The notes below the pieces were generated by a model. It was not told the DNA's origin. It saw only the letters and a program-made list of their open reading frames with translations, and ran no database searches. Below, one piece after another: positions 2,111 to 58,708 of a stretch of DNA of 64,000 nucleotides. A program made the translations under genes and the position numbers. The DNA is from Theocolax elegans (taxonomy: Eukaryota > Arthropoda > Insecta > Hymenoptera > Cerocephalidae), in contig CM047429.1 in assembly GCA_026168455.1 (NCBI GenBank), positions 58,347,623 through 58,411,622 of the forward strand, in the 5' to 3' direction. The first letter of the stretch is position 1. Each line of letters starts with the position of its first letter.

Positions 2111-2351
2111 ATTTAGAATCTATTTATTTTTTAAATTAATATTGAATTGTGTCGGTCTTGCTGAGCTAACGTCTAACGACTCTAGAACTCCGAGTTGCTT
2201 GCTCGAAAAAGCACGACAATTCGCCGCGTATCAATCCCGAGGACAACATTATGAAGGCCACAAGCCGTCAGACATAAACCAAAAGAAGAAGCAAATAAAA
2301 TACTAAGTAATAAAATTGAAAATATTTTAATAAGAAAGAAAGAAATTTTAA

Positions 2352-2430
2352 GTCTATGTGTTTCGTCTTGGACCGTCTGCCAGAACTCATCAGTGGGGCG
2401 CAGACAGTCCCTGCCCAGACACACAAGAAC
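2352..2430 (-). ncRNA. Hammerhead ribozyme copy, damaged
   Basis: CUGAUGAG and CGAAAC are present on the minus strand. One base is missing from the 5' strand of stem I (UGGG-C against GCCCCA), and the loop and stem III have single-base differences. It is probably weakened. Confidence 0.6.
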
Positions 2431-2843
2431 AATATTATTGAAACAAAATAATGATAAACTTAAAATTTTGGTATCGTAAGAACGAATGAACGGAGCCTAT
2501 ATAAGTACATAAGGTGGAAAATCTGATTGTGGATGGAAAAGTCCCCTAACATCAGAGTATGTACTATGGACATAATTTAAACCAAAGTTGTTATTAAAAT
2601 ATATTTTTCTCGCCCAGGCAAAAGTTTTAAATTAATATTGAATTTTGTCGGTCTTGCTGAGCTAACGTCTAACGACTTTAAGAACTCCAAGTTGCTCGCT
2701 CGAAAAGGCACGACAATTCGCCGCGTATCAATCCCGAGGACAACATTATGAAGGCCACAAGCCGTCAGACATAAACAAAAGAAGAAGCAATAAAATATAA
2801 GTAATAAAATTGAAAATTTTAATAGAAAAGAAAGAAATTTTAA

Positions 2844-2924
2844 GTCTATGTGTTTTTGTCTTGGGACCGTCTGCCAGAACTCATCAGTGGGGCGCAGACG
2901 GTCCCTGCCCCAGACACACAAGAC
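2844..2924 (-). ncRNA. Hammerhead ribozyme copy, G12 mutated
   Basis: Stem I, the GUGUC site and CUGAUGAG are intact, but the second core strand reads CAAAAAC in place of CGAAAC. This replaces the invariant G12 and adds one A. Family knowledge predicts it to be inactive. It is mirrored base for base at 5348–5428. Confidence 0.6.
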
Positions 2925-3095
2925 AAGATTAGTGAATCAAAATAATCATAAACTTAAAATTTTGGTATCGTAAGAACGAATGCCGGAGCCTATATAAGTA
3001 CACATAAGGTGGAAAAGATTGTGGATGGAAAAGTGCCCCTAAATCAGAGTATGTACTATGGACATAATTTTAAACCAAAGTCCTGTTATTAAAAT

Positions 3096-3456
3096 ATTTC
3101 TTACGATACCAAAATTTAAGTTTATCATTATTTTGATTCAATAATATGTCTTGTGTGTCTGGGGCAGGGACCGTCTGAGCCCCACTGATGAGTTCTGGCA
3201 GACGTCCCAAGACGAAACACATAGACTTAAATTTCTTTCTTTCTTATTAAAATTTTCAATTTTATATTAGTATTTATTGCTTTTCTTTGGTTTATGTCTG
3301 ACGGCTTGTGGCCTTCATAATGTTGTCCTCGGGATTGATACGCGGCGAATTGTCGTGCTTTTCGAGCAAGCAACTCGGAGTTTAGATCGTTAGACGTTTA
3401 GCTCAGCAAGACCGACACAATTCAATATTAATTTAAAAAATAAATAGATTCTAAAT
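3096..3456 (-). mobile_element. LTR-like unit, inverted, carrying a hammerhead
   Basis: A partial LTR-like unit lies in reverse orientation between the head-to-head junction at about 3095 and the minus-strand RT fragment. It includes a plus-strand hammerhead (3148–3226) and the 130-bp segment (about 3290–3420). It matches the arrangement at 13,926–14,230 but has more indels. Confidence 0.6.
3148..3226 (+). ncRNA. Type III hammerhead ribozyme copy, core intact
   Basis: The cleavage site GUGUC, stem I (UGGGGC/GCCCCA), CUGAUGAG, stem II, CGAAAC and stem III are all present. Loop II is one G shorter than in the 13,167 copy. Its mirror copy is at 5045–5123. Confidence 0.75.
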
Positions 3457-4815: not shown

Positions 4816-5044
4816 TTAGAATCTATTTATTTTTTAAATTAATATTGAATTGTGTCGGTCTTGCTGAGCTAACGTCTAACGATCTAAACTCCGAGTTGCT
4901 TGCTCGAAAAAGCACGACAATTCGCCGCGTATCAATCCCGAGGACAACATTATGAAGGCCACAAGCCGTCAGACATAAACCAAAGAAAAGCAATAAATAC
5001 TAATATAAAATTGAAAATTTTAATAAGAAAGAAAGAAATTTTAA

Positions 5045-5123
5045 GTCTATGTGTTTCGTCTTGGGACGTCTGCCAGAACTCATCAGTGGGGCTCAGACGG
5101 TCCCTGCCCCAGACACACAAGAC
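5045..5123 (-). ncRNA. Type III hammerhead ribozyme copy, core intact
   Basis: This is the mirror of the copy at 3148–3226, with the same one-base loop II deletion. All conserved core nucleotides and stem I are present. Confidence 0.72.
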
Positions 5124-5347
5124 ATATTATTGAATCAAAATAATGATAAACTTAAAATTTTGGTATCGTAAGAAATATTTTAATAACAGGACTTTGGTTT
5201 AAAATTATGTCCATAGTACATACTCTGATTTAGGGGCACTTTTCCATCCACAATCTTTTCCACCTTATGTGTACTTATATAGGCTCCGGCATTCGTTCTT
5301 ACGATACCAAAATTTTAAGTTTATGATTATTTTGATTCACTAATCTT

Positions 5348-5428
5348 GTCTTGTGTGTCTGGGGCAGGGACCGTCTGCGCCCCACTGATGAGTTCTGGCA
5401 GACGGTCCCAAGACAAAAACACATAGAC
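5348..5428 (+). ncRNA. Hammerhead ribozyme copy, G12 mutated
   Basis: This is the mirror of 2844–2924. The core strand reads CAAAAAC in place of CGAAAC, so it is predicted inactive. The rest is intact. Confidence 0.6.
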
Positions 5429-5841
5429 TTAAAATTTCTTTCTTTTCTATTAAAATTTTCAATTTTATTACTTATATTTTATTGCTTCTTCTTTTGTTTA
5501 TGTCTGACGGCTTGTGGCCTTCATAATGTTGTCCTCGGGATTGATACGCGGCGAATTGTCGTGCCTTTTCGAGCGAGCAACTTGGAGTTCTTAAAGTCGT
5601 TAGACGTTAGCTCAGCAAGACCGACAAAATTCAATATTAATTTAAAACTTTTGCCTGGGCGAGAAAAATATATTTTAATAACAACTTTGGTTTAAATTAT
5701 GTCCATAGTACATACTCTGATGTTAGGGGACTTTTCCATCCACAATCAGATTTTCCACCTTATGTACTTATATAGGCTCCGTTCATTCGTTCTTACGATA
5801 CCAAAATTTTAAGTGTATCATTATTTTGATTCAATAATATT

Positions 5842-5918
5842 GTCTTGTGTCTGGGGCAGGGACCGTCTGCGCCCCACTGATGAGTTCTGGCAGACGGTCC
5901 CAAGACGAAACCATAGAC
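5842..5918 (+). ncRNA. Hammerhead ribozyme copy, stem III shortened
   Basis: CUGAUGAG, CGAAAC and stem I are intact. Stem III has lost bases on both strands (GUGUC without the extra GU; CCAUAGAC in place of CACAUAGAC), which leaves a weaker stem. Confidence 0.65.
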
Positions 5919-6120
5919 TTAAAATTTCTTTCTTTCTTATTAAAATATTTTAATTTTATTACTTAGTATTTATTGGCGTCTTCTTTTGGTTTAGTCTGAC
6001 AGCTTGTGGCCTCATAATGTTGTCCTTGGGATTGATACGCGGCGAATTGTCGTGCCTTTCCGAGCGAGCAACTTGGAGTTCTTAGAGTCGTTAGACGTTA
6101 GCTCTGCAAGACCGACAAAA

Positions 6121-6882
6121 TTAAACACGATATGCTTCCGGTACCTCAATGCCCCATAAGTAAAACAGAGCAACTTGATCATCATAATCTGGTGTAATCC
6201 AGACGTGTATTTAAAGCATGCTCATTCATCACTTGCAATGGTTTTTGACGACTTCGGATAGCGACATCAGATGCCAATTTCTTAAAACCAATTGATCTGA
6301 GCTCAATTCCTGCCTTAATGCGGTTTACTAGTTCCTCTCTGGTGACCTTCGTTGTTCCTAATGGCAGATTTCTAGCTCTTTGAGGCCAGGCAGCCCGTTC
6401 AGCCTCACGGATTTCAACTCTGCGAGCTCTTCTATCTTCTGGGGGAGGTCTTGGATTTCTTGATTGATATTTTCAAGAAATCTATTGTGGGAAATCATCA
6501 CCAGCAGCAACTTGGTCCTGATTTGCATTTCCACCACGTTGCGAAGCCATGGCCAATCGTCCAGCACGAATTGCTAATTGTAACGTATTCAACATTTGCA
6601 GCATTTCCAATAGGTGCTCCTACAGCAAAATAATCCCGACCAATGTTCACGATTTGCCCCTCATTCGGTCTGCGATTTAGATTGCATAAATCAGCAAAGT
6701 TGGATACCATGCCTTCCATTTCTGTCGAAATACTATAAATACTTTGCGCAATTCTCTCCATTTGATCTCTACTTAAAACACAGTTTCTCATAGGAGATCC
6801 TCTGTAGTTAGCCATGGACTCATCATTCATAAGATCTTTCACAATGTAAGCAAATGTACGCTATATTGGCATATAAAGCCAT
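6121..6882 (-). pseudogene. Gag-like gene, copy 2 (frameshifted)
   Basis: This minus-strand copy runs from the leader ATG at 6882 to the ...YRV end at about 6123. There it joins the 130-bp LTR segment directly, without the acidic C-terminal tail. Several single-base indels break the frame, for example near 6185, 6490 and 6590. It belongs to a minus-oriented repeat series of about 0.94 kb (starts near 5994, 6939 and 7877) that mirrors the plus-oriented series at 9,164–12,964. Confidence 0.6.
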
Positions 6883-8126: not shown

Positions 8127-8592
8127 CTTATGTGTACTTTTTTTTTTTTTTTTTTATGTTATTTAACGTCGCTCTATTTATGCTGCCAGGGCTAATCACG
8201 CGGAGGTGAACGGTGTGTCTGTAAACAAAGCACAGTAGTTGAAACAGTGGTGCTTGTGTCCATCGGAAGATATCATCGGTCCACTGTAATTAGTCTAATA
8301 ATTACAGTTTCCTGTCCTCCCGATGGACCACCGCGATCCTCTTTACATCTTCGCGTCCTAACGTTCCCTATAGTTCAGATGCCCGTGCCTCTCATGCACT
8401 GACAAGTGCACGAAACGCACGCGCACCTGAACTGGCGTCACATTATAGTGACACGCCGAGCCACTGAGTCCGGTGTTCGAAAATGCACATGAAAAAATTT
8501 TCAGAGGTACACGTCTGGATCGAACCCACGACCCTCGGTGTGAGAGTCGGGAGCTCTACCCATAAGCCACCGCGGCTCTCTTATGTGTACTT
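8127..8592 (-). mobile_element. tRNA-derived SINE with target-site duplication
   Basis: The element is on the minus strand. Its 5' end (8579 downward) has a tRNA-like RNA polymerase III promoter: an A box TGGCTTATGGGTAGAGC (8553–8569) and a B box GGGTTCGATCC (8517–8527), at tRNA-like spacing. The tail is a poly(A) of 18, seen as T at 8138–8155. Perfect 13-bp target-site duplications (CTTATGTGTACTT) lie at 8127–8139 and 8580–8592. The insertion splits an LTR-like unit next to its TATA box, so it came after that unit. A diverged relative ends the window at 63,850–64,000. Confidence 0.85.
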
Positions 8593-8877
8593 ATATAGGC
8601 TCCGTTCATTCGTTCTTACGATACCAAAATTTTAAGTTTATCATTATTTGTTTCAATAATATTGTCTTGTGTGTCTGGGGCAGGGACTGTCTGCGCCCCA
8701 CTGATGAGTTCTGGCAGACGGTCCCAAGACGAAACACATAGACTTAAAATTTCTTTCTTTCTTATTAAATTTTCAATTTTATTACTTAGTATTTTATTTG
8801 CTTCTTCTTTTGGTTTATGTCTGACGGCTTGTGGCCTTCATAATGTTGTCCTCGGGATTGATACGCGGCGAATTGTC
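8593..8877 (-). mobile_element. LTR-like unit, minus orientation, second part
   Basis: This continues the unit interrupted by the SINE: the TATA region, a plus-strand hammerhead (8664–8743) and most of the 130-bp segment (about 8818–8877). At 8877/8878 the sequence turns around into a plus-oriented unit, which gives a fold-back with a spacer of about 134 bp. Confidence 0.6.
8664..8743 (+). ncRNA. Type III hammerhead ribozyme copy, core intact
   Basis: All core positions, the GUGUC site, stems I–III and loop II are intact. Loop I carries GGGACUGUCUGC rather than GGGACCGUCUGC; this still pairs with loop II through a G·U wobble. Confidence 0.82.
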
Positions 8878-8944
8878 GTCTTGGGACCGTCTGCCAGAAC
8901 TCATCAGTGGGGCGCAGACAGTCCCTGCCCCAGACACACAAGAC
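8878..8944 (-). ncRNA. Hammerhead ribozyme copy, truncated at fold-back
   Basis: CUGAUGAG, stem I and the GUGUC site are present. The GAAA strand is missing because the unit starts at the inversion joint (8877/8878); the minus strand reads GACGACAATTC there. It cannot form a complete core. Confidence 0.6.
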
Positions 8945-9163
8945 AATATTATTGAAACAAAATAATGATAAACTTAAAATTTTGGTATCGTAAGAACGAA
9001 TGAACGGAGCCTATATAAGTACACATAAGGTGGAAAATCTGATTGTGGATGGAAGTGCCCCCTAACATCAGAGTATGTATGGACTTAATTTTAAACCAAA
9101 GTCCTGTTATTAAAAATATAATTTTTCTCGCCAGGCAAAAGTTTTAAATTAATATTGAATTTC
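8945..9163 (+). mobile_element. LTR-like unit, plus orientation, 3' part
   Basis: It carries the TATA region (CTATATAAG near 9010) and continues to the start of the 130-bp segment at 9164, where the Gag-containing tandem array begins. Confidence 0.6.
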
Positions 9164-9342
9164 GTCGGTCTTGCTGAGCTAACGTCTAACGACTCTAAGA
9201 ACTCCAAGTTGCACGCTCGAAAGGCACGACAATTCGCCGCGTATCAATCCCAAGGACAACATAATGAAGGCCACAAGCCGTCAGACTATATCTAGAAGTT
9301 TTGAGAAATCCCTTCTCTACATTGTATAACATACCGATACAT

Positions 9343-10110
9343 ATGGCTTTATATGCGAATATAGCCTACATTTGCTTATACATTATGAAAGATCTTATGA
9401 ATGATGAGTCCATGGCTAACTACAGAGGATCTTCCTATGAGAAACTGTGTTTTAAGTAGAGATCAAATGGAGAGAATTGCGCAAAGTATTTATAGTATTT
9501 CGACAGAAATGGAAGGCATGGTATCCAACTTTGCTGACTTATGCAATCTAAATCGCAGACCGAATGAGGGGCAAATCGTGAACATTGGTCGGGATTATTT
9601 TGCTGTAGGAGCACCTGTTGGAAATGCTGCAACTGCATTGAATACTTTACAATTAGCAATTCGTGCTGGACGATTGGCCATGGCTCCGCAACGTGGTGGA
9701 GAGTCAAATCAGGACCAAGTTGCTGCTGGTGATGATTTCCACAATAGATTTCTTGAAAATATCAATCAAGAAATCCAAGACCTCCCACCAGAAGATAGAA
9801 GAGCTCGCAGAGCTGAAATCCGTGAGGCTGAACGGGCTGCCTGGCCTCAAAGAGCTAGAAATCTGCCATTAGGAACAACGAAGGTCACCAGAGAGGAACT
9901 AGTTACCGTATTAAGGCAGGAATTGAGCTCAGATCAATTGGTTTTAAGAAATTGGCATCTGATGTCGCTATCCGAAGTCGTCAAAAATCATTGCAAGTGA
10001 TGAATGAGCATGCTTTAAATACACCGTCTGGATTACACAAGATTACTGATGATCAAGTTGCTCTGTTTTACTTATGGGGCATTGAGGTACCGGAAGCATA
10101 TCGTGTGAAT
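9343..10110 (+). pseudogene. Gag-like gene, tandem copy A
   Basis: Leader ATG at 9343. One extra T near 9432 breaks the frame close to the start, and other indels follow near 9905. The central part (9416–10,000) is open for almost 200 codons. It differs from the other tandem copies by shared substitutions with copy 1 at position 2 (PVGNAATALN, GESNQDQ), so copies 1 and A form one subfamily. Confidence 0.6.
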
Positions 10111-10291
10111 TTCGTCGGTCTTGCTGAGTTAACGTCTAACGACTCTAAGAACTCCAAGTTGCTCGCTCGGAAAGGCACGACAATTCGCCGCGTATCAATC
10201 CAAGGACAACATATGAAGGCCACAAGCCGTCAGACTATATCCAGAAGTTTTGAGAAATCCCTTCTCTACATTGTATAACATACCAATACAT

Positions 10292-11060
10292 ATGGCTTTA
10301 TATGCCAATATAGCGTACATTTGCTTATACATTGTGAAGATCTTATGAATGATGAGTCCATGGCTAACTACAGAGGATCTCCTATGAGAAACTGTGTTTT
10401 AAGTAGAGATCAAATGGAGAGAATTGCGCAAAGTATTTATAGTATTTCGACAGAAATGGAAGGCATGGTATCCAACTTTGCTGATTTATGCAATCTAAAT
10501 CGCAGACCGAATGAGGGGCAAATCGTGAACATTGGTCGGGATTATTTTGCTGTAGGAGGCACCTATTGGAAATGCTGCAAATGCATGAATACGTACAATT
10601 AAGCAATTCGTGCTGGGACGATTGGCCATGGCTTCGCAACGTGGTGGAAGATGCAAATCAGGACCAAGTTGCTGCTGGTGATGATTTCCACAATAGATTT
10701 CTTGAAATATCAATCAAGAAATCCAAGACCTCCCACCAGAAGATAGAAGAGCTCGCAGAGTTGAAATCGTGAGGCTGAACGGGCTGCCTGGCCTCAAAGA
10801 GCTAGAAATCTGCCATTAGGAACAACGAAGGTCACCAGAGAGGAACTAGTAACCGCATTAAGGCAGGAATTGAGCTCAGATCAATTGGTTTTAAGAAATT
10901 GGCATCTGATGTCGCTATCCGAAGTCGTCAAAAAACCATTGCAAGTGATGAATGAGCATGCTTTAAATACACCGTCTGGATTACACAAGATTACTGATGA
11001 TCAAGTTGCTCTGTTTTACTTATGGGGCATTGAGGTACCGGAAGCATATCGTGTTGAATT
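10292..11060 (+). pseudogene. Gag-like gene, tandem copy B (frameshifted)
   Basis: Leader ATG at 10292. Indels are frequent, for example near 10,340, 10,556, 10,585 and 10,770. It is the most damaged of the four tandem copies. Confidence 0.6.
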
Positions 11061-11241
11061 TCGTCGGTCTTGCTGAGCTAACGTCTAACGACTCTAAGAA
11101 CTCCAAGTTGCTCGCTCGGAAAGGCACGACAATTCGCCGCGTATCAATCCCAAGGACAACATTATGAAGGCCACAAGCCGTCAGACTATATCCAGAAGTT
11201 TTGAGAAATCCCTCTCTACATTGTATAACATACCGATACAT

Positions 11242-12010
11242 ATGGCTTTATATGCCAATATAGCGTACATTTGCTTATACATTGTGAAGATCTTATGAAT
11301 GATGAGTCCATGGCTAACTACAGAGGATCTCCTATGAGAAACTGTGTTTTAAGTAGAGATCAAATGGAGAGAATTGCGCAAAGTATTTATAGTATTTCGA
11401 CAGAAATGGAAGGCATGGTATCCAACTTTGCTGATTTATGCAATCTAAATCGCAAACCGAATGAGGGGCAAATCGTGAACATTGGTCGGGATTATTTTGC
11501 TGTAGGTAGCACCTATTGGAAATGCTGCAAATGCATTGAATACGTTACAATTAGCAATTCGTGCTGGACGATTGGCCATGGCTCCGCAACGTGGTGGAGA
11601 TGCAAATCAGGACCAAGTTGCTGCTGGTGATGATTTCCACAATAGATTTCTTGAAATATCAATCAAGAAATCCAAGACCTCCCACCAGAAGATAGAAGAG
11701 CTCGCAGAGCTGAAATCCGTGAGGCTAAACGGGCTGCCTGGCCTCAAAGAGCTAGAAATCTGCCATTAGGAACAACGAAGGTCACCAGAGAGGAACTAGT
11801 TAACCGCATTAAGGCAGGAATTGAGCTCAGATCAATTGGTTTTAAGAAATTGGCATCTGATGTCGCTATCCGAAGTCGTCAAAAACCATTGCAAGTGATG
11901 AATGAGCATGCTTTAAATACACCGTCTGGATTACACAAGATTACTGATGATCAAGTTGCTCTGTTTTACTTATGGGGCATTGAGGTACCGGAAGCATATC
12001 GTGTTGAATT
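11242..12010 (+). pseudogene. Gag-like gene, tandem copy C (frameshifted)
   Basis: Leader ATG at 11242. Small indels near 11,288, 11,506 and 11,655 break an otherwise well conserved sequence. It carries the NRKPNEG variant in place of NRRPNEG. Confidence 0.6.
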
Positions 12011-12192
12011 TCGTCGGTCTTGCTGAGTTAACGTCTAACGACTCTAAGAACTCCAAGTTGCTCGCTCGGAAAGGCACGACAATTCGCCGCGTATCAATCC
12101 CAAGGACAACATTATGAAGGCCACAAGCCGTCAGACTATATCCAGAAGTTTTGAGAAATCCCTTCTCTACATTGTATAACATACCAATACAT

Positions 12193-12960
12193 ATGGCTTT
12201 ATATGCCAATATAGCGTACATTTGCTTATACATTGTGAAAGATCTTATGAATGATGAGTCCATGGCTAACTACAGAGGATCTCCTATGAGAAACTGTGTT
12301 TTAAGTAGAGATCAAATGGAGAGAATTGCGCAAAGTATTTATAGTATTTCGACAGAAATGGAAGGCATGGTATCCAACTTTGCTGATTTATGCAATCTAA
12401 ATCGCAGACCGAATGAGGGGCAAATCGTGAACATTGGTCGGGATTATTTTGCTGTAGGAGCACCTATTGGAAATGCTGCAAATGCATTGAATACGTTACA
12501 ATTAGCAATTCGTGCTGGACGATTGGCCATGGCTTCGCAACGTGGTGGAGATGCAAATCAGGACCAAGTTGCTGCTGGTGATGATTTCCACAATAGATTT
12601 CTTGAAAATATCAATCAAGAAATCCAAGACCTCCCACCAGAAGATAGAAGAGCTCGCAGAGTTGAAATCCGTGAGGCTGAACGGGCTGCCTGGCCTCAAA
12701 GAGCTAGAAATCTGCCATTAGGAACAACGAAGGTCACCAGAGAGGAACTAGTAAACCGCATTAAGGCAGGAATTGAGCTCAGATCAATTGGTTTTAAGAA
12801 ATTGGCATCTGATGTCGCTATCCGAAGTCGTCAAAAACCATTGCAAGTGATGAATGAGCATGCTTTAAATACACCGTCTGGATTACACAAGATTACTGAT
12901 GATCAAGTTGCTCTGTTTTACTTATGGGGCATTGAGGTACCGGAAGCATATCGTGTTTAA
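12193..12960 (+). CDS. Gag-like protein of the retroelement, tandem copy D (open)
   Basis: This is the only uninterrupted copy: 255 codons from the ATG at 12193 to TAA at 12958–12960. A second in-frame Met (MANYRGS) 23 codons in is an alternative start. There is no signal peptide, no zinc knuckle and no recognisable enzyme motif. The middle is helical and charged (LPPEDRRARR, REAERAAWPQRARN). The stop is created where Gag runs into the 130-bp LTR segment, so the acidic C-terminal tail of the full gene (see 15,366–15,620) is missing. By position it corresponds to the capsid gene of a Ty3/Gypsy element, but I do not recognise the family from sequence alone. Confidence 0.6.
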   Translation: MALYANIAYICLYIVKDLMNDESMANYRGSPMRNCVLSRDQMERIAQSIYSISTEMEGMVSNFADLCNLNRRPNEGQIVNIGRDYFAVGAPIGNAANALNTLQLAIRAGRLAMASQRGGDANQDQVAAGDDFHNRFLENINQEIQDLPPEDRRARRVEIREAERAAWPQRARNLPLGTTKVTREELVNRIKAGIELRSIGFKKLASDVAIRSRQKPLQVMNEHALNTPSGLHKITDDQVALFYLWGIEVPEAYRV

Positions 12961-13166
12961 TTTTGTCGGTCTTGCAGAGCTAACGTCTAACGACTCTAAG
13001 AACTCCAAGTTGCTCGCTCGGAAAGGCACGACAATTCGCCGCGTATCAATCCCAAGGACAACATTATGAAGGCCACAAGCTGTCAGACATAAACCAAAAG
13101 AAGACGCCAATAAAATACTAAGTAATAAAATTAAAAATATTTTAATAAGAAAGAAAGAAATTTTAA

Positions 13167-13246
13167 GTCTATGTGTTTCGTCTTGGGACCGTCTGCCAGA
13201 ACTCATCAGTGGGGCGCAGACGGTCCCTGCCCCAGACACACAAGAC
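13167..13246 (-). ncRNA. Type III hammerhead self-cleaving ribozyme (reference copy)
   Basis: Read on the minus strand, 5' to 3'. Stem III 5' strand GUCUUGUGUGU; cleavage nucleotide C, with the cut predicted between the complements of 13,235 and 13,234. Stem I is UGGGGC / GCCCCA, closing a 13-nt loop. Core CUGAUGA. Stem II is GUUCUGG / CCAAGAC (one C·A mismatch and one U·G), closing a 9-nt loop. Core GAAA. Stem III 3' strand is ACACAUAGAC, pairing 10 bp with one bulged U. C3–G8, G12, A13, A14 and the A15.1–U16.1 pair are all present. Loop I (GACCGUCUG) and loop II (CAGACGGUC) are exact complements, consistent with the loop–loop contact of natural hammerheads. The open helix is stem III, hence type III. 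Activity is inferred. Confidence 0.85.
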
Positions 13247-13312
13247 AATATTATTGAATCAAAATAATGATACACTTAAAATTTTGGTATCGTAAGAACG
13301 AATGAACGGAGC

Positions 13313-13320
13313 CTATATAA
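13313..13320 (+). promoter_or_regulatory. TATA box of the LTR-like unit
   Basis: CTATATAA followed by GTACACATAAGG, conserved in nearly every unit. It points toward the next 130-bp segment and Gag. The motif is nearly symmetric, so an opposite-strand reading (TTATATAGG) about 70 bp upstream of the ribozyme is possible. Confidence 0.5.
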
Positions 13321-13674
13321 GTACACATAAGGTGGAAAATCTGATTGTGGATGGAAAAGTGCCCCCTAACATCAGAGTATGTACTATGGACATAATTTTA
13401 AACCAAAGTCCTGTTATTAAAAATATATTTTTTCTCGCCCAGGCAAAAGTTTTTAAATTAATATTGAATTTTGTCGGTCTTGCTGAGCTAACGTCTAACG
13501 ACTTTAAGAACTCCAAGTTGCTCGCTCGAAAAGGCACGACAATTCGCCGCGTATCAATCCCGAGGACAACATTATGAAGGCCACAAGCCGTCAGACATAA
13601 ACCAAAAGAAGAAGCAAATAAAATACTAAGTAATAAAATTGAAAATATTTTAATAAGAAAGAAAGAAATTTTAA

Positions 13675-13754
13675 GTCTATGTGTTTTGTCTTGGGACCGT
13701 CTGCCAGAACTCATCAGTGGGGCGCAGACGGTCCCTGCCCCAGACACACAAGAC
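13675..13754 (-). ncRNA. Hammerhead ribozyme copy, G12-to-A
   Basis: Identical in architecture to the 13,167 copy, except that the second core strand reads CAAAAC in place of CGAAAC. G12 is a catalytic-core residue, so the copy is predicted inactive. It lies one 508-bp period from the reference copy. Confidence 0.75.
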
Positions 13755-13925
13755 AATATTATTGAATCAAAATAATCATAAACTTAAAATTTTGGTATCG
13801 TAAGAACGAATGAACGGAGCCTATATAAGTACACATAAGGTGGAAAATCTGATTGTGGATGGAAAAGTGCCCCTAACATCAGAGTATGTACTATGGACAT
13901 AATTTTAAACCAAAGTCCTGTTATT

Positions 13926-14230
13926 AAAATATTTCTTACGATACCAAAATTTTAAGTTTATCATTATTTTGATTCAATAATATTGTCTTGTGTGTCTGGG
14001 GCAGGGACCGTCTGAGCCCCACTGATGAGTTCTGGCAGACGGTCCCAAGACGAAACACATAGACTTAAATTTCTTTCTTTCTTATTAAATTTTTTCAATT
14101 TTATTACTTAGTATTTTATTGCTTCTTCTTTTGGTTTATGACTGACGGCTTGTGGCCTTCATAATGTTGTCCTCGGGATTGATACGCGGCGAATTGTCGT
14201 GCCTTTTCGAGCGAGCAACTTGGAGTTTTT
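13926..14230 (-). mobile_element. LTR-like unit, inverted, with hammerhead
   Basis: It begins at the head-to-head joint (ATTTCTTACGATACC, about 13,930) and holds a plus-strand hammerhead (13,985–14,064), AATAAA signals in reverse, and the 130-bp segment. The segment is truncated where it joins the minus-strand RT at about 14,230. Confidence 0.65.
13985..14064 (+). ncRNA. Type III hammerhead ribozyme copy, core intact
   Basis: All core nucleotides and all three stems match the 13,167 copy. The only change is C to A at the loop I/stem I boundary (GUCUGA in place of GUCUGC), outside the 6-bp stem. Confidence 0.84.
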
Positions 14231-15238
14231 AGAGATTCTAAATTTAGTCACCGAATATACTATTGCTAATTGTTCTTTTTCGCAGGTAGTATAATTTACT
14301 TCGCAATTCGATAAACAGCGCGATACAGCCGATATTAAATAGTTATGTCCTTTTTCATCTTCTTGATACAATATACCACCGATACCTCTATCTGACGCGT
14401 CTGTCTGAACTTTAAATGGTATATTTGGCATTATATGATTAAGGGTTACATGATTCAATAAGTGTGATTTTAATTTTTCAAATGCTGCGGTATGTTTCTC
14501 TAACCAAATCCATTCGACATTTTCACACAATAATTCTCTCAATGGATAGATATCATTACAATGCATTGTATTAAATTGTCGATAGTAATTGCACAGTCCT
14601 AAAAAACTTTGCAGTTGAGTTTTATTCCGCGGATTTTCAAAATTTTTTATAATTTCGAGCTTTCTCGGATCCGGCGTAATTCCCGTAGGAGACAATATAA
14701 ATCCCAAAAATTGAATATTTTTCTGAATGAATACACATTTACTAAATCTTAATGTAAAGTTATATTGAATTAATCGTTGAAATATTAAATTTAATAATTC
14801 TATGTGTTTTTGAAAAGTATCCGTTCCAATTAATTTGTCATCTATATAAATTGAAATTTCGCGTAATAATGCTATTTCACCTAATGCATTTCTTAAAGCC
14901 CTTATAAATCCTGCTCCAGCCGTTTTTATTCCAAATGGTATATGCTTATATTGAAACATTTTATTATTAAAAAGGAATGCTGTGAATTTTCGCGATTCTT
15001 TGTGTAACGGTATTTGCCAGTAGCTATTGGCCAAATCCATTTTCGAAAAATAACGTGTATTATTAAATTTTTGTAATAATTCATTTATCGCTGGAGGAGA
15101 TTCTAAATCATCCTCAATAACCTTGTTCAATTGCCTTGCATCTAAACATATTCTAACTTTATTTTCAGACTTTTTTGCGATCCTAATCGGGTTGCAATAC
15201 GGGCTAATTGAACGTTCTGTAATTCCGTTTCGTAACAT
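14159..15238 (-). CDS. Ty3/Gypsy-like reverse transcriptase–RNase H, open copy (3'-truncated)
   Basis: An open frame of 359 codons from ATG at 15,236–15,238. The RT is of the Ty3/Gypsy class: LDARQLNKV (32–40), motif A MDLANSYW (67–74), motif B PFGIKTAG (101–108), catalytic YIDD (131–134) and the thumb/connection GFILSPTGITPDP (179–191). RNase H starts with TDASDRGIGG (279–288), and a second RNase H block (EKEQLAIVYS) lies near 319–328. The frame then leaves the element's coding region: the last 25 or so residues (after KFRI) are translated from the 130-bp LTR segment. Integrase, most of RNase H and any protease are absent, so the copy cannot encode a full retrotransposition machinery. It starts 128 bp after the Gag-like stop, on the same strand. 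Confidence 0.85.
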   Translation of the reverse strand: MLRNGITERSISPYCNPIRIAKKSENKVRICLDARQLNKVIEDDLESPPAINELLQKFNNTRYFSKMDLANSYWQIPLHKESRKFTAFLFNNKMFQYKHIPFGIKTAGAGFIRALRNALGEIALLREISIYIDDKLIGTDTFQKHIELLNLIFQRLIQYNFTLRFSKCVFIQKNIQFLGFILSPTGITPDPRKLEIIKNFENPRNKTQLQSFLGLCNYYRQFNTMHCNDIYPLRELLCENVEWIWLEKHTAAFEKLKSHLLNHVTLNHIMPNIPFKVQTDASDRGIGGILYQEDEKGHNYLISAVSRCLSNCEVNYTTCEKEQLAIVYSVTKFRISKNSKLLARKGTTIRRVSIPRTTL

Positions 15239-15365: not shown

Positions 15366-15884
15366 TTAATCGACTTCGTTTTCTCTGTTATTGTCATCAT
15401 TGTTGCGTTCTTCTTGTTCGGGTTCCTCTGGTTGATTAGCAGCTGCTACTCCTGGTATGACTCTTCTAGCTGCCGGGTCATCTGGTTGTGCATTATCATC
15501 TCCTGAATATCCGGAACGCAATGGGGCAGTATATCTGTTTGCAGGAATCACATCAGCTCCTTGGTTGGGCACATATGGAGGAGGGTCAACACGATATGCT
15601 TCCGGTACCTCAATGCCCCATAAGTAACAGAGCATCTTGATCATCAGTAATCTTGTGTAATCCAGACGGTGTATTTAAAGCATGCTCATTCATCACTTGC
15701 AATGATTTTTGACGACTTCGGATAGCGACATCAGATGCCAATTTCTTAAAACCAATTGATCTGAGCTCAATTCCTGCCTTAATGCGGTTAACTAGTTCCT
15801 CTCTGGTGACCTTCGTTGTTCCTAATGGCAGATTTCTAGCTCTTCGAGGCCAGGCAGCCCGTTCAGCCTTACGGATTTCAGCTA
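15366..15884 (-). pseudogene. Gag-like gene, 3' half with complete C-terminal tail
   Basis: Minus-strand copy starting abruptly at about 15,884 within Gag (near REAERAAW) and ending at a stop at 15,366–15,368. It keeps the tail absent from the tandem copies: VDPPPYVPNQGADVIP, then an acidic, Gln/Asn-rich end. Frame breaks lie near 15,628 and elsewhere. It marks the right-hand edge of the retroelement block; unique sequence or another element begins at about 15,885. Confidence 0.65.
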
Positions 15885-40236: not shown

Positions 40237-43200
40237 ATGTCTACGTCCCTCTCGGTTTTAGCGAGCCACGACGAGATCGTGCGTTGCACGAACGTCCTCG
40301 TCAACGGTTCTTGCGAAGGAGGTTAGTCGACCGTTTTTACATCGCGGCTTTTCCATTTTACGTGATATTTTAATGTGTTTCTCTATATTTTTCATTTTCA
40401 TATTGTTCTTTTAAGTGTCGAGTTGTTTTATTTTTTAATTTATGTGATAACGTTCATTTAAGAATGGTTTGAATTCGAGTTTCAAAGTGTACTTTTTACT
40501 GGTTTCACGTCTCAGTGTTACATGCCGTTTGATTTTTTACTTATTATTTACATTGATATTTTTATAGTTTTAGCAATTCTTTTTTCACGTTTACTCTTTC
40601 ATTATTTTACGTTCAACATGTATGTACTCTACATTGTTTGATTGTTAAACATAATCATGTATATTCAATTGTTATGTACTTGGAATCACTACATAACTTG
40701 TGTACAGTTTCTTCATTAATAAAATAATTAAACACTTATATATATATTTAATAAATATATGGTTTTAATTATTTTATTTACTGTTTTCCTACTTTGTAGA
40801 ATTTCTGCAGTTTGCAATTAATCAAGAGGAAATGCGCCAGAAGTGGCTTGCTTCTGTGCAAGAATGTCAGCGTCTACATTCAGCTTTAGAAAAGGCTCAT
40901 CACGAAGCAGCAGATTTAGATCGTAAGTTAAGTCATGCAAGACGGCTATTAGACGAGGAAAAGAAGAGACGAAGAACTGCTGAAGATCAGCGTAATTCAT
41001 GTGTAAGCACAAATATAAATATTAACTTTTCCTTTTAATTCCGTAAGGTATTGCAGTGTACATATATATACATATTTCTTAGCACAAATGCGAACCTGAG
41101 GATTTAGAATTGTTTTGTATAATGTACATGTCACATTAATTTCTATCAAGACTTCAATCATTTGTTTTTCCCAGGAAAGGCAAATAGCATTAGTTAGAGA
41201 TCTTTTATTAAATGATGGAGGTAGAAACCTGAATGATGAGACAAGAGAAAAGCTCCAATTTTTAAATAACACAACACTTAATGGAAGACACAGTACCACT
41301 CATTTGAGAGATCACATACATGATAAGTAAGAAAAACTTTCAATTTACATTTAGTAATCATTTTTGTCAATGCAAACTTATTGTTTAAATAAAAAATTAT
41401 TAGACCTTATTTACATAATTATATTTGCTTTTTAATAAATTATTAGATTAAATACCATAACGGAGCTGGACTCCACTGGTTCCTTGCTCAGTGACTTAAG
41501 TTGCTTCTCAAAATCAGAAGATGATTTGGATACAAGCATTATCCTTCAGCAAAACCACAAGAAACGAGAATGGAAGGAACATCGACCTAGTGGCGAATAT
41601 GTTATTAATAAAAGACGTCGCAGTGCCTTACAAAAAGCTGTAGATCTTAACAATTCAGATAGAATAGTAGCAACAACAACCCTTGTAATGCCAAAAGAAG
41701 GTGCAATCACTGCATCTTCGGTAATCGAGGCTATCCCTGGTGATGAAAATAAGGATCCACAACTTAATATGTCATCGCAGAGCAGCTCACGTAAAAAACG
41801 CAAGAGCACCGACCAAAGCAGCAAATCCTCTAAAAGCGGGATGTACAGTCAAGATATTCCACCAACTGTAAGATCGTGTTTATTTATTATATGACATGAT
41901 ATACATAAAAGTGTATAAAACGTAAATTTAATTTTTCAGCCTTCTGCACCAAAAGCAGATATCATGACGTCAAATTCAGATTCAGAAAATGTATTTAAAC
42001 CTAGTCCAAATATTGGTGGTTATACAATTCATGCTAGAACACCAAGAGGTCATAGTTTTGTTGGAAAAAAAATAATTAAGCCAGAAATATGTACACCATG
42101 CGGTAAAAGGTAACATTTATAATTAATATTTAAGAGTAATTAAAATATTTTAGTATTAATTTTAGTATTAATTGTGTTAAATCTTACTAATAATTTATAT
42201 TTATATTTTAGGATACGTTTTGGTACTGCGGCTATCAAATGTAGAGATTGTAGGGCAGTAAGCCACTTAAAATGCAAAGATCTTGTGCCACTTCCATGTA
42301 TTCCTACAGGAAATACACCCACACTTCGTGGCACAACGGTATGTGATATTTCAAAAATGTAACTGATAAGATATTTAACTTATTTATCTCAAACGGTTCG
42401 AAATTTGATTTAAAAAAATTATACTACACTTATATGAGTTCATTATACTTTAATAAATAATTCTTTTGAAAGTTATTTGTTTACAATTTTTTTCATGTAA
42501 AATACGTTGAAAAATAAATAAATTACTTATAAATTTACCAATTGAAAATTATTTATTTAATCTTTTACGAATCGATAGGGCACTATCGCAGACTATACGC
42601 CGATGATTCCACCGATGGTTCCGTCGCTCGTGGTGCATTGCATCAATGAGGTCGAGTTGCGTGGCATGACCGAGCAAGGTTTATATCGCGTAAACGGAGG
42701 TACAGCTGAGGTCAAATGCTTGAAAGAGAGATTCCTGAAGGGACGAGGTGCACCAAATCTATCGGAAGTCGATATTGCTACGATTTGTTCAACCCTTAAG
42801 GACTTTTTGCGTTCACTCAAGGAGCCGCTCATCACCGTTGGTCTCTGGGCTGATTTTGCTCGAGCTACTACGATTGCGGATAAACAGGACGCAGATGCTG
42901 CTCTTTATCAAGCTATTTCAGAATTACCTCAGCCAAATCGCGATACTCTCGCATTCCTTATACTTCATTTGCAAAGGGTTTCCAGTACTCCCGAATGTAA
43001 AATGCCTATAAGTAATCTCGCGAAAGTTTTTGGTCCAACGCTAGTGGGATACAGTTCTCAGCATCCATCACCTACTTCCATGCTTACCGAAACTAAAAAC
43101 CAAGTCGCAGTAAGTAAATTAGAAATAAAAACCAATTTATGTTTATTGTTATAAATATTATATAAATTATTTAAAAATAATTTCATAAATAATATTAATT

Positions 43201-56100: not shown

Positions 56101-58708
56101 TACAGTTTTATAATACATAATAAGTTTAACAGTTCCAAATATTTACGTTCATTAAAGCAGATTTGAGATGCTGATCGAGACATTGAGGAACCATTTCCCA
56201 TTTGTTCCGACGGTGAGCTACTAAGTACAGATGTTGTATCACCAGCTGTTTGTTGAATGTCAGGACCAACACGTTGCTGAGCTGCTGGAACTGCTTGGTA
56301 ATGATGTTGTTGTATGAGAACGCCGGTAGGTCCTTTAGGAAAAATGTGAGTCCATCGTCGGCGGTTACTCGTTAATTTGATGGTAACATGTGATGGATCG
56401 AAGGGATTGATAAGAGCTCGACTTGGACGAATACTTCCAGTTGGTTGGTGTCCCATCGAATTTGTTGGACTTCCTGCACTTCCTACTACTGGCCTAAATG
56501 GTGGTGATATCTCGCTGTCAGTCATATCGCTCTTAACTGAGGTTCTTGATACTAAAATTATAACAATTTGTTATTTACTGTTTATTACAAGAAGTTTCAT
56601 GTAGAAGAGAAAAGCTTACTTTATTAGCATTTAAAAGTTTAGAAAAAAATAAACGTATGTATTTATCAGGAGGGATAAGTTTGAAAATTAAATAATTAAA
56701 AAAACTAATTTTACTAAATAATACTAAAATAATTATAATGCTTTTTAAAGTTATTACATAAAATAAGGTTTATACCTGTAACTTCACCATTAGATTCGTT
56801 ACTTGTAACACTTTCTGTACGAGGTGGAATAGAAATTGCAGCAGTGCGAGAAGCAGAATTGGCAGCTATTACTGACAAAGATGGTGTATGAATCTCTGGT
56901 GGAGGATGATGAATATCTGGATCTGACATTTTCCTTTTTAAAAGTTTCAACGCTTGGGCATTGTTATGAGTTTCCATGCATACCACACTAGTCTTTTTTG
57001 TTCTTGTTGATACACGCTGTAAGCTTGAAGTATGAATAGGTGGCAACTGAAAGACTTGAGCATCGTAGGCATCATAATCAAAAAATGAATTATGCAGATA
57101 CTCTCGAGTATCTTCTTGCAATAGTCTTGTTTTACTACTCAAAAGCTTCCCATTATTATCTTCATTTAATTGTTTTGATACTCGTTGTGGAAGTTTAATT
57201 CGAGGAATAAAGGTTGAATTTGGTATTTTCTTATTTGTAGAGTAAAAACTTAGATTTATCCAATGAGGCATACTATAATCATCTGGCACATTCATTGATG
57301 AATCTTTATTATGAAACTGGAATGAAATATTAATTAATGTATTAATGGTGTAATTTTAGATTAAAAATGTTGAAAATTAAAAAAAGTGAAACCTTTAACA
57401 ATGGAACAGCATGTAAAGGCTGTTCTCCAACACAAACTAAATCACTACCAACTCCATTATCAATAATTCTTTGCTTTGTAACATTTGTTAATTCTCTGTC
57501 CACCTCAAACACTCCAACACCAGATGTAATAACAACTGAAAGTTGACCTGTTCTATCAAAACTACGATCCAAATAGTGTTTCTCGAATACTATAAAATTA
57601 ATAATGCATTAGAATTGTGTATAATAATAAAACTAGAAATAAATTTTTTTTATTCGAATGAATTATTATTACCATTTAGAGACATATTTAAAACTTCTAA
57701 AAAGTTGCCCTGTGCTGCTGTAGAATTTGTAGCTTTAGGAATAATAACACCAGGTTTCTGATGATATTCCAAAACAATTTTTTGATAGTCTGTAAACAAT
57801 TTTCTAAGCTGTACTAAAACATTACTCCAATCTTCATAACGTTCATTTTGCACTGCAACTCTATAAAAATCTTCATAAAATCTTCCTCTATAATCTTGTT
57901 GCAAGCATTCGCGCATATAATTAGGAAATTCTTCAAGGCTAGTAGCATTATAAAATGTTCTTGAAAATAGAACAATTGTTACTTCATGATTGCTACCATT
58001 TTTTTTCCATTTTTGAAATAAATCTGCTAAAAACCCATTTACAGCCTTTTCAAAGTAAAGATCACCATGTATATCAAAATCCCACATTTCTGAACTCATT
58101 TGAATAAAAAGATAGACCATGCTAGTGGATGAACGAAATACAACTTTTGTGTCATCAGTTATAACTCCACAAGCTACTCTGTCACCTTGTGACCACATTT
58201 CATAAACTTGACATCTTATACTTCCTCCACAAAATTCTATTTTTTTATTCATATAAACACAAGTATTGACCTACAAACATAGTAAAATATGTTTAAAAAC
58301 AATAATATACTTGAATAATAAATGTGAATTTTTGAAATATATTAAATTGTTTTATACCAGGCTGTTTTTTAACCGCCACATTTCACTGCGACCCATGTAT
58401 TGATCTTTAAATGTTAATTCAACAGAATCTAAAGCTACATCATCAGGATTAACAACATTCATATAAACATCTCCAAATGTTCTTAATTGAAACATAGATG
58501 CTATATTATATTCCACGCTAATCGTCTCTCTGCCTTGTAAGTCCTCCTTGAAGGCAGTAACCTGAAGGAGGAGACGACTAAATTCGTCATCAGGATGGTA
58601 TATCTCAACAACATTGCCAGTTTTTATTCCAGGATAATCCTTTGGATTAATAATAAGATCCTCACCACTGAAGTTTTTTTGGTGCACAATAAGCTTAAAA
58701 AGCTTCAT
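44193..58708 (-). CDS. Iml1: DEPDC5 / Iml1, GATOR1 complex subunit
   Basis: Twenty exons give 1,594 residues: 58708–58358, 58270–57673, 57589–57393, 57316–56776, 56551–56147, 55985–55851, 53630–53413, 53339–53137, 53060–52886, 52756–52556, about 51660–51487, 49512–49442, 47979–47872, 47717–47510, 46973–46865, 46771–46526, 46440–46280, 45884–45716, 45568–45252, 44390–44193. Phases agree throughout. Signatures: N-terminal [35 protein letters not shown] with [70 protein letters not shown] domain (about 1,138–1,231, [13 protein letters not shown]); C-terminal IHVTG-type region and [13 protein letters not shown]. Length is close to human DEPDC5 (about 1,600). In the family, GATOR1 (with Nprl2 and Nprl3) restrains TORC1 at the lysosome as a Rag GTPase GAP. 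The start at 58,708 was chosen over a TTG three codons upstream. The acceptor of exon 11 lies in an A-rich run and is uncertain by a few codons. Confidence 0.95.
44391..45251 (-). other. DEPDC5 last intron
   Basis: 861-bp AT-rich intron between exons 19 and 20, with GTAAGT donor and TTTCAG acceptor. Nothing else recognised. Confidence 0.8.
46974..47509 (-). other. DEPDC5 intron 14 with ACTTCAGTAAA-like repeats
   Basis: Short degenerate repeats of the type (A)CTTCAGTAAA(T) recur near 47,072, 47,084, 47,130, 47,150 and 47,330. They may be a decayed low-complexity array. No coding. Confidence 0.5.
47980..49441 (-). other. DEPDC5 intron 12
   Basis: 1.46-kb AT-rich intron. Reading frames inside (for example 48,388–48,705) have only low-complexity composition. 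Confidence 0.7.
49513..51486 (-). other. DEPDC5 intron 11
   Basis: 1.97-kb intron with a (CA)n/(CG)-rich simple repeat at about 50,070–50,105, TATATA runs, and a GC-richer island at 50,300–50,400 of unknown nature. No exon seen. Confidence 0.6.
51661..52555 (-). other. DEPDC5 intron 10
   Basis: 895-bp AT-rich intron (donor GTATCT at 52,555). The acceptor side is an A-rich run rather than a clean pyrimidine tract, so the right-hand exon border is approximate. Confidence 0.5.
53631..55850 (-). other. DEPDC5 intron 6
   Basis: 2.2-kb intron. A 66-codon minus-strand frame at 54,316–54,516 has no recognisable homology. The remainder is AT-rich. Confidence 0.6.

Follow-up and report, generated by a model that had tools for sequence, protein, structure and literature searches.

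A type III hammerhead in a dispersed ~510-bp repeat of Theocolax elegans with Penelope-type insertion marks

The window, a 64,000-nt stretch of the Theocolax elegans genome, carries a type III hammerhead at 13169–13243 on the minus strand, with an intact core and three helices. Read from 13243 to 13169, the minus strand is UUGUGUGUC/UGGGGC-13 nt-GCCCCA-CUGAUGA-stem II-GAC-GAAAC-ACAUAG, and cleavage would be expected at the slash, between 13235 and 13234. Stem I is 6 bp long with a 13-nt loop, and stem III has 8 contiguous pairs, wobbles counted. Stem II is weak, with 3 contiguous pairs or, by manual reading, 4 with a bulged U. Hammerhead copies on contig C4 have a clean 4-bp stem II (manual reading). 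The initial annotation had described a complete-looking hammerhead on this strand, the cleavage position, and stem I UGGGGC/GCCCCA abutting CUGAUGA, and our reading agrees on each; its 10-bp stem III is shortened to the 8 pairs given here.

Exact copies of the 15-nt core region number 11 in the window, whereas a search tolerating as many as 3 mismatches would yield 0.62 matches by chance. Nine of the 11 cores are listed by the Rfam type III model at E ≤ 1, and seven of these have E < 0.01. Copies at 3152–3223 (+) and 5048–5119 (−) score 36.4 bits (E 3.6e-4 for the best window copy). The reported hammerhead at 13169–13243 scores 36.3 bits (E 3.8e-4), as do copies at 8668–8740 (+) and 13989–14061 (+), each 36.3 bits, the latter inverted relative to 13169–13243 and 13678–13750. 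The copy at 13678–13750 (−, 32.6 bits) has GAAA changed to AAAA on its own strand, a broken core, and stem I is shortened at 2355–2425 (−, 32.3 bits). Weak copies lie at 2847–2920 (−) and 5352–5425 (+), each 25.7 bits with E 0.38. The core search added two 15-mers absent from the Rfam list, one at 5877–5891 (+) within a unit copy and one at 8893–8907 (−) within a truncated unit copy. The recurrence in 11 copies put forward earlier thus holds for the exact core, and is reduced to nine by the Rfam model, with a broken core in at least one of these.

By its conserved core, cleavage triplet, and three helices with an open stem III, the motif is a type III hammerhead; by covariance model it falls short of the Rfam gathering score of 48.5, which no window copy reached. 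In the genome, where 68 of 79,098 candidates were scored with this model, the best copy among the matches listed also lies under that score, at 42.9 bits (E 1.3e-5). Of the two observations that together would have refuted the initial annotation, no hit above threshold and no cleavage, the first is thus the case at the curated score. A chance hammerhead was ruled out by the 11 exact cores and the E-values; together E-values, core, and copy number make a chance origin untenable, as had been argued. The core is intact in 102 of the 111 distinct hammerhead-like copies from the fetched loci; badly broken copies are uncounted among the 111 because the pattern tolerated one change per core block. 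One exact hammerhead pattern searched in IMG/VR had no match.

The window hammerheads sit in copies of a ~510-bp unit. Two head-to-tail units at 12959–13926 (−) include the reported hammerhead and diverge, head to head, from an inverted partial unit at 13933–14234 (+), with the junction at ~13926/13933. Two units at 2128–3091 (−) diverge at 3091/3098 from a partial unit at 3098–3439 (+) that ends at unit position ~505, and a partial unit at 4831–5174 (−) with the same end diverges at 5174/5181 from two units at 5181–6122 (+). The only converging junction seen, at 8876–8879, lies between partial units at 8579–8879 (+) and 8876–9286 (−). At 9156–13091 (+), a ~135-bp stretch of the unit (unit positions 358–490, antisense) and a gag-like ORF form a ~950-bp tandem array; the unit piece in this array lacks the hammerhead.

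Pieces of a Gypsy-like element adjoin the units. A gag-like ORF at 12280–12957 (+) is interrupted mid-ORF by a unit piece, and a reverse transcriptase (RT) with RNase H at 14234–15238 (−) is interrupted in RNase H by a unit and is antisense to the adjoining hammerhead. No Pfam family matched the gag-like protein, and a search of a very large protein set found no homologue of it at E ≤ 1e-3. Gag joins the unit after '...IEVPEAYRV'; at 15366–15644 the same residues run on in frame into more protein. The RT joins the unit inside RNase H, and both gag and RT are antisense to the unit. In Ty3/Gypsy pol, integrase follows RNase H; here RNase H passes directly into the unit at the site where integrase would come.

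The initial annotation placed the hammerhead in LTR-like units of a Ty3/Gypsy-like element; on such a reading it would process that element's RNA. The repeated hammerhead and its retroelement context stand, with 11 cores and with units adjoining gag and RT in an LTR-like repetition. The LTR assignment itself fails because gag and RT join the unit mid-ORF and antisense. In the fetched loci no direct LTRs bound a gag-pol, and one of the 35 distinct places, each examined with flanks of ~1.5–10 kb, has gag and RT with the unit. We regard this reading as highly improbable. The term 'LTR-like' is a fair likeness to Penelope pseudo-LTRs rather than to Gypsy LTRs. What lies in the window is secondary, a composite of nested palindromes and a 950-bp gag/unit-piece tandem.

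Beyond the window, 34 further fetched places contain the hammerhead-bearing ~510-bp repeat, arranged as short palindromes or tandem arrays. Arrays of ~18 copies occur on small contigs and short dispersed groups on large contigs. A genome search gave at least 148 matches, a lower bound because 38 of 789 candidates were scored. The check for gag, NC, and RT covered 52 fetched stretches, which overlap and represent the 35 distinct places, with ~1.5 kb of flank for 30 loci and up to 10 kb for some. Among these, the window's gag, NC, and RT pieces match only their own locus (L023). The sole other RT match among the 52 stretches is a fragment, 31–33% identical, near L049 and L050. In one unit, read as a doubled sequence, the longest stretch without a stop codon is 158 aa. 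The unit is an independent repeat, outside the neighbouring Gypsy element.

Outside the window, all 26 inverted junctions diverge; inverted junctions are present in 24 of 35 loci outside the window, and the 26 are not all independent because L011 and L049/L050 are duplicated loci. The window has three diverging junctions and one converging, and the converging one counts against insertion by a Penelope-like element (PLE). Of 21 resolved palindromic loci, 20 have outer ends of two classes, one at unit position 27–34 and the other at 492–510; the two sites, ~30 and ~505, are ~39 nt apart. Exact flanking repeats of at least 11 bp bound 19 of the 21 loci, compared with 2 of 420 swapped flank pairs. 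They measure 13–14 bp in 14 of 21 loci and range from 11 to 20 bp in the 19 long ones, some lengths being extended by fortuitous identity of target and element ends. LTR elements make fixed target duplications of 4–6 bp, so these repeats and the head-to-head arrangement of the dispersed groups also speak against a Ty3/Gypsy LTR. Insertion flanks are 77% AT, compared with 68% across all fetched loci.

The exception in end class, L042, also lacks a long flanking repeat; the other locus without one is L037, with 9 bp. L042 is a unit palindrome with reverse-complementary flanks, an inverted duplication of the whole locus. Single-arm copies end at one of the two sites (~505 or ~30) in 7/7 cases, and six of these seven lack a flanking repeat of at least 11 bp (the exception is L024, with 13 bp), which counts against the PLE reading. 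Loci without two resolved outer ends or without an inversion were left out of the 21 (L010, L018, L020, L017, L024, L028, L036, L041, L043, L044, L046, L051, and L052). L049 duplicates L050 and was therefore dropped, and L013 and L014 were entered as L048. L030 was included, although its 18-nt inverted arm is uncounted in the 35-locus junction tally, and visual inspection placed the ~30 ends of L021 and L030. L082 was left out of the analysis.

The end sites correspond to 3′ ends of RNA of the hammerhead strand, and from this geometry that strand was probably the template. Arms extend beyond the hammerhead site in 28 of 40 cases and beyond one unit in 21 of 40 (L042 and L049 are in the arm and inner-end counts), as would suit a circular template or a multimer that had not been cut. 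Picking loci by similarity score inflates these arm lengths. Inner cDNA ends fall at the cleavage site in 1 of 46 cases, with 1.0 expected, and cleavage therefore leaves no trace in the insertions. Run-off of a hammerhead-cut linear RNA was considered as the insertion template and rejected on these unenriched inner ends, in a sample biased to near-complete copies. No hairpin shared by the start sites was detected (z-scores 0.14, −0.01, and −0.31, the third for a stretch that stopped short of the tail). The start regions have no common or significant RNA fold, which counts against the PLE reading.

Spread as a tandem satellite by DNA-level events such as unequal exchange and inverted duplication, with an incidental hammerhead, would suit the long arrays on small contigs and the inverted duplication at L042, flanks included. 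It would also suit the nucleotide diversity in 64 units of the genome, 0.0229 in the hammerhead and 0.0246 in the rest of the unit, which gives no clear signal of selection on the ribozyme within the genome and counts against a retrozyme. The copies within the genome are too alike for covariation testing. The scattered insertions contradict the satellite reading for dispersed copies, with their fixed end sites, one per class, and their flanking repeats. It is very improbable as a general account, and local array growth may proceed by such events.

PLE copies of the same genome served as a control. Scoring of 150 out of 1,713 candidates gave at least 98 GIY-YIG matches; several are paired head to head and contain stop-free stretches longer than 800 aa. 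Among the matches listed, wasps and ants supply the closest PLE relatives with an organism name. In L053 (C6:24250301-24257500), two PLE copies stand head to head with arms 99.8% alike; one end alone carries a tail, of 29 nt, and the flanking repeat measures 13 bp. The L053 protein contains RVT_1 and GIY-YIG domains (L053 is the one GIY-YIG locus checked with Pfam). The locus also carries its own short hammerhead-like core 3′ of the ORF, which the Rfam model did not list. Another seven pairs from this family, selected for their head-to-head layout, have a tail at exactly one end (7/7) and flanking repeats of 13–16 bp; overall, a one-end tail and 13–16-bp repeats are present in 8/8 loci. In L068, one of the eight, the tailless end is ~7 nt longer than in the others. 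L068–L081 belong to the L053 family and have stop-free ORFs in head-to-head pairs.

In the published account cited, the PLE enzyme cuts and extends both strands of AT-rich targets and initiates at two adjacent internal sites, the stretch between them giving a tail of 30–40 nt (PMC11167929). The one-end tail of the PLE copies here would follow from such initiation, as that source describes it. Adineta Penelopes are described with inverted pLTRs, a 31-bp tail, and 8–10 bp duplications (PMC3846280). Flanking repeats in this genome are longer than these published PLE duplications of 8–10 bp, which counts against the PLE reading. The ~39-nt offset and ~13-bp flanking repeats of the unit are the same signature as in the L053 family. 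Head-to-head arms, a one-end tail, and fixed start sites mark the unit's insertions as PLE-type.

The best explanation of these observations is that the ~510-bp unit is a non-autonomous type III hammerhead retrozyme inserted by a PLE enzyme of the same genome (probability of about 0.75). It is a dispersed repeat without RT, with a hammerhead per unit and marks of retro-insertion. It is not an autonomous PLE, in that the unit has no ORF with RT and GIY-YIG and the PLE protein lies at a separate locus. Because the insertions bear the same scars as the genome's Penelope-type retrotransposons, the unit probably moves with the Penelope enzyme.

The unit could instead be a deletion derivative, a pseudo-LTR fragment, of an unsampled PLE family and no independent retrozyme. 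PLE loci here do have their own hammerhead-like cores 3′ of the ORF, and solo pLTR copies are described (PMC3846280, in the part cited). The 3′ regions of 15 GIY-YIG loci were compared; 14 fall in five groups and L055 matches none. Across L054–L067, there are at least five GIY-YIG groups by 3′ region, with hammerhead cores that differ, are degenerate, or are not visible. The unit has no common sequence with any of the 15 loci (best blastn E 0.008, AT-rich), and no convincing identity was found between unit ends and PLE ends in this set. This absence of similarity argues against a derivative and also counts against the PLE reading. By manual reading, the stem III region of the PLE cores is very short, in contrast to the 8-bp stem III here. 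A deletion derivative is thus unlikely.

Insertion of the retrozyme by a PLE enzyme could proceed as follows. Tandem units would be transcribed on the hammerhead strand, and the hammerhead would cut the RNA to unit lengths, which may be ligated into circles. The PLE protein would cut both strands of an AT-rich target ~13 bp apart, the enzyme being proposed from the observed duplications. The two target 3′ ends would prime at two fixed sites, unit ~505 and unit ~30, which are separated by ~39 nt. The template RNA would extend beyond the cleavage site and exceed one unit in length, presumably as a circle or uncut multimer. Joining of the two cDNAs head to head would yield the diverging palindromic arrays with a one-end tail, a geometry that is observed. 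Some tandem loci would expand to satellite-like arrays; in the window, units would have been fused antisense with Gypsy-like pieces and then further rearranged. The more specific proposal that a type III hammerhead retrozyme serves as an in-trans template for the Penelope enzyme, with both target ends primed at two fixed sites on one possibly circular RNA, stands at even odds; if right, it would be the first sequence-level evidence of an animal retrozyme's mover.

Animal retrozymes are described with type I hammerheads, and PLE helpers have been proposed from co-occurrence and common traits (PMC7229834, as excerpted); a later review states that their repeats hold no conserved motif by which a helper could be recognised (PMC7761336). 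With a PLE mark on the insertions and PLE copies as a control in the same genome, a single protein and a single RNA would suffice to test how animal retrozymes move. A dispersed insect repeat now joins the hosts of type III hammerheads, which are known mainly from plants and infectious circular RNAs. The cited part of PMC7936874 reports type III hammerheads from plants, HDV-like agents, termites, and flies, and a structure search for that kind with no similar motif in hymenopterans. 'In preparation' work on type III elements in insects is cited in the relevant part of PMC7761336. A search of titles and abstract openings of open-access journal papers gave no insect type III retrozyme and no PLE insertion marks in retrozymes among the matches listed.

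The unit resembles animal non-LTR retrozymes, as described in the cited text of PMC7229834, in its tandem repeats, its hammerhead per unit, and its dispersed and arrayed copies; their target duplications, when present, exceed 4 bp, and PLEs are suspected helpers. They carry type I hammerheads in ~170–400 nt, whereas the unit is type III and ~510 bp, with Penelope-type end sites, tail, and head-to-head structure. Plant LTR retrozymes share a type III hammerhead, a 6-bp stem I, and units of several hundred bp, according to the sections cited (PMC7229834, PMC7761336, PMC7936874). Those sections describe direct LTRs, 4-bp repeats, and a stem I loop of 6–8 nt; the unit has head-to-head groups, ~13-bp flanking repeats, a 13-nt loop, and an animal host. 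With its inverted groups and longer flanking repeats, it does not fit a plant-type LTR retrozyme. PLEs, as described in part for Poseidon of Anolis (PMC11167929) and Adineta (PMC3846280), are alike in head-to-head copies, an optional one-end tail, two start sites, and AT-rich targets. They differ from the unit, which has no RT or endonuclease ORF, has a type III rather than a short PLE hammerhead, and has no common sequence with PLEs as sampled above. Type III hammerheads of HDV-like agents, termites, and dipterans are alike as insect type III motifs with Watson-Crick loop-loop pairing; in the cited text they have a long helix I and an internal-loop pseudoknot of ~4 pairs, and here the complementarity spans 12 nt of two apical loops (PMC7936874). 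Dolichopoda pDo500 is a similar insect satellite, each of whose repeats contains a hammerhead, and the word 'retrotransposon' is absent from the main text of that paper (PMC2837043).

The loops of stem I and stem II of the 13169–13243 hammerhead are perfectly complementary over 12 nt, a feature missed in the initial description of the motif. A loop-loop complementary run of at least 12 nt is present in 75 of the 111 distinct hammerhead-like copies. Hammerhead pseudoknots elsewhere have ~4–6 pairs in the passages cited (PMC3088659, PMC7936874). At minimum energy the RNA is predicted to form a long hairpin (−39.9 kcal/mol, z −5.3) that buries the hammerhead core, and a hammerhead constrained without the pseudoknot reaches −21.9 kcal/mol; the 12-bp loop-loop duplex has a folding energy of −25.0 by itself. 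The predicted fold thus speaks against self-cleavage and counts against the retrozyme reading. In folds of prefixes, stem I is predicted at 39, 46, 56, and 58 nt and is absent at 52, and the competing hairpin wins from 60 nt on, when the stem III 3′ strand is still unmade. Co-transcriptional cleavage would therefore need kinetic persistence of stem I, followed by a locked state, and the folding energies argue against this sequence of events. That the 12-nt complementarity locks the ribozyme off in the mature RNA is a speculative suggestion.

Other features of the window lie outside the units. A weak Rfam mir-932 match at 41028–41116 scores 30.4 bits, compared with a cut-off of 54. An open frame at 42579–43154 resembles a RhoGAP exon. 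At 57650–58270 lies an Iml1/DEPDC5-like GATOR exon; among the matches listed, its nearest with an organism name is an ant protein (94% identity).
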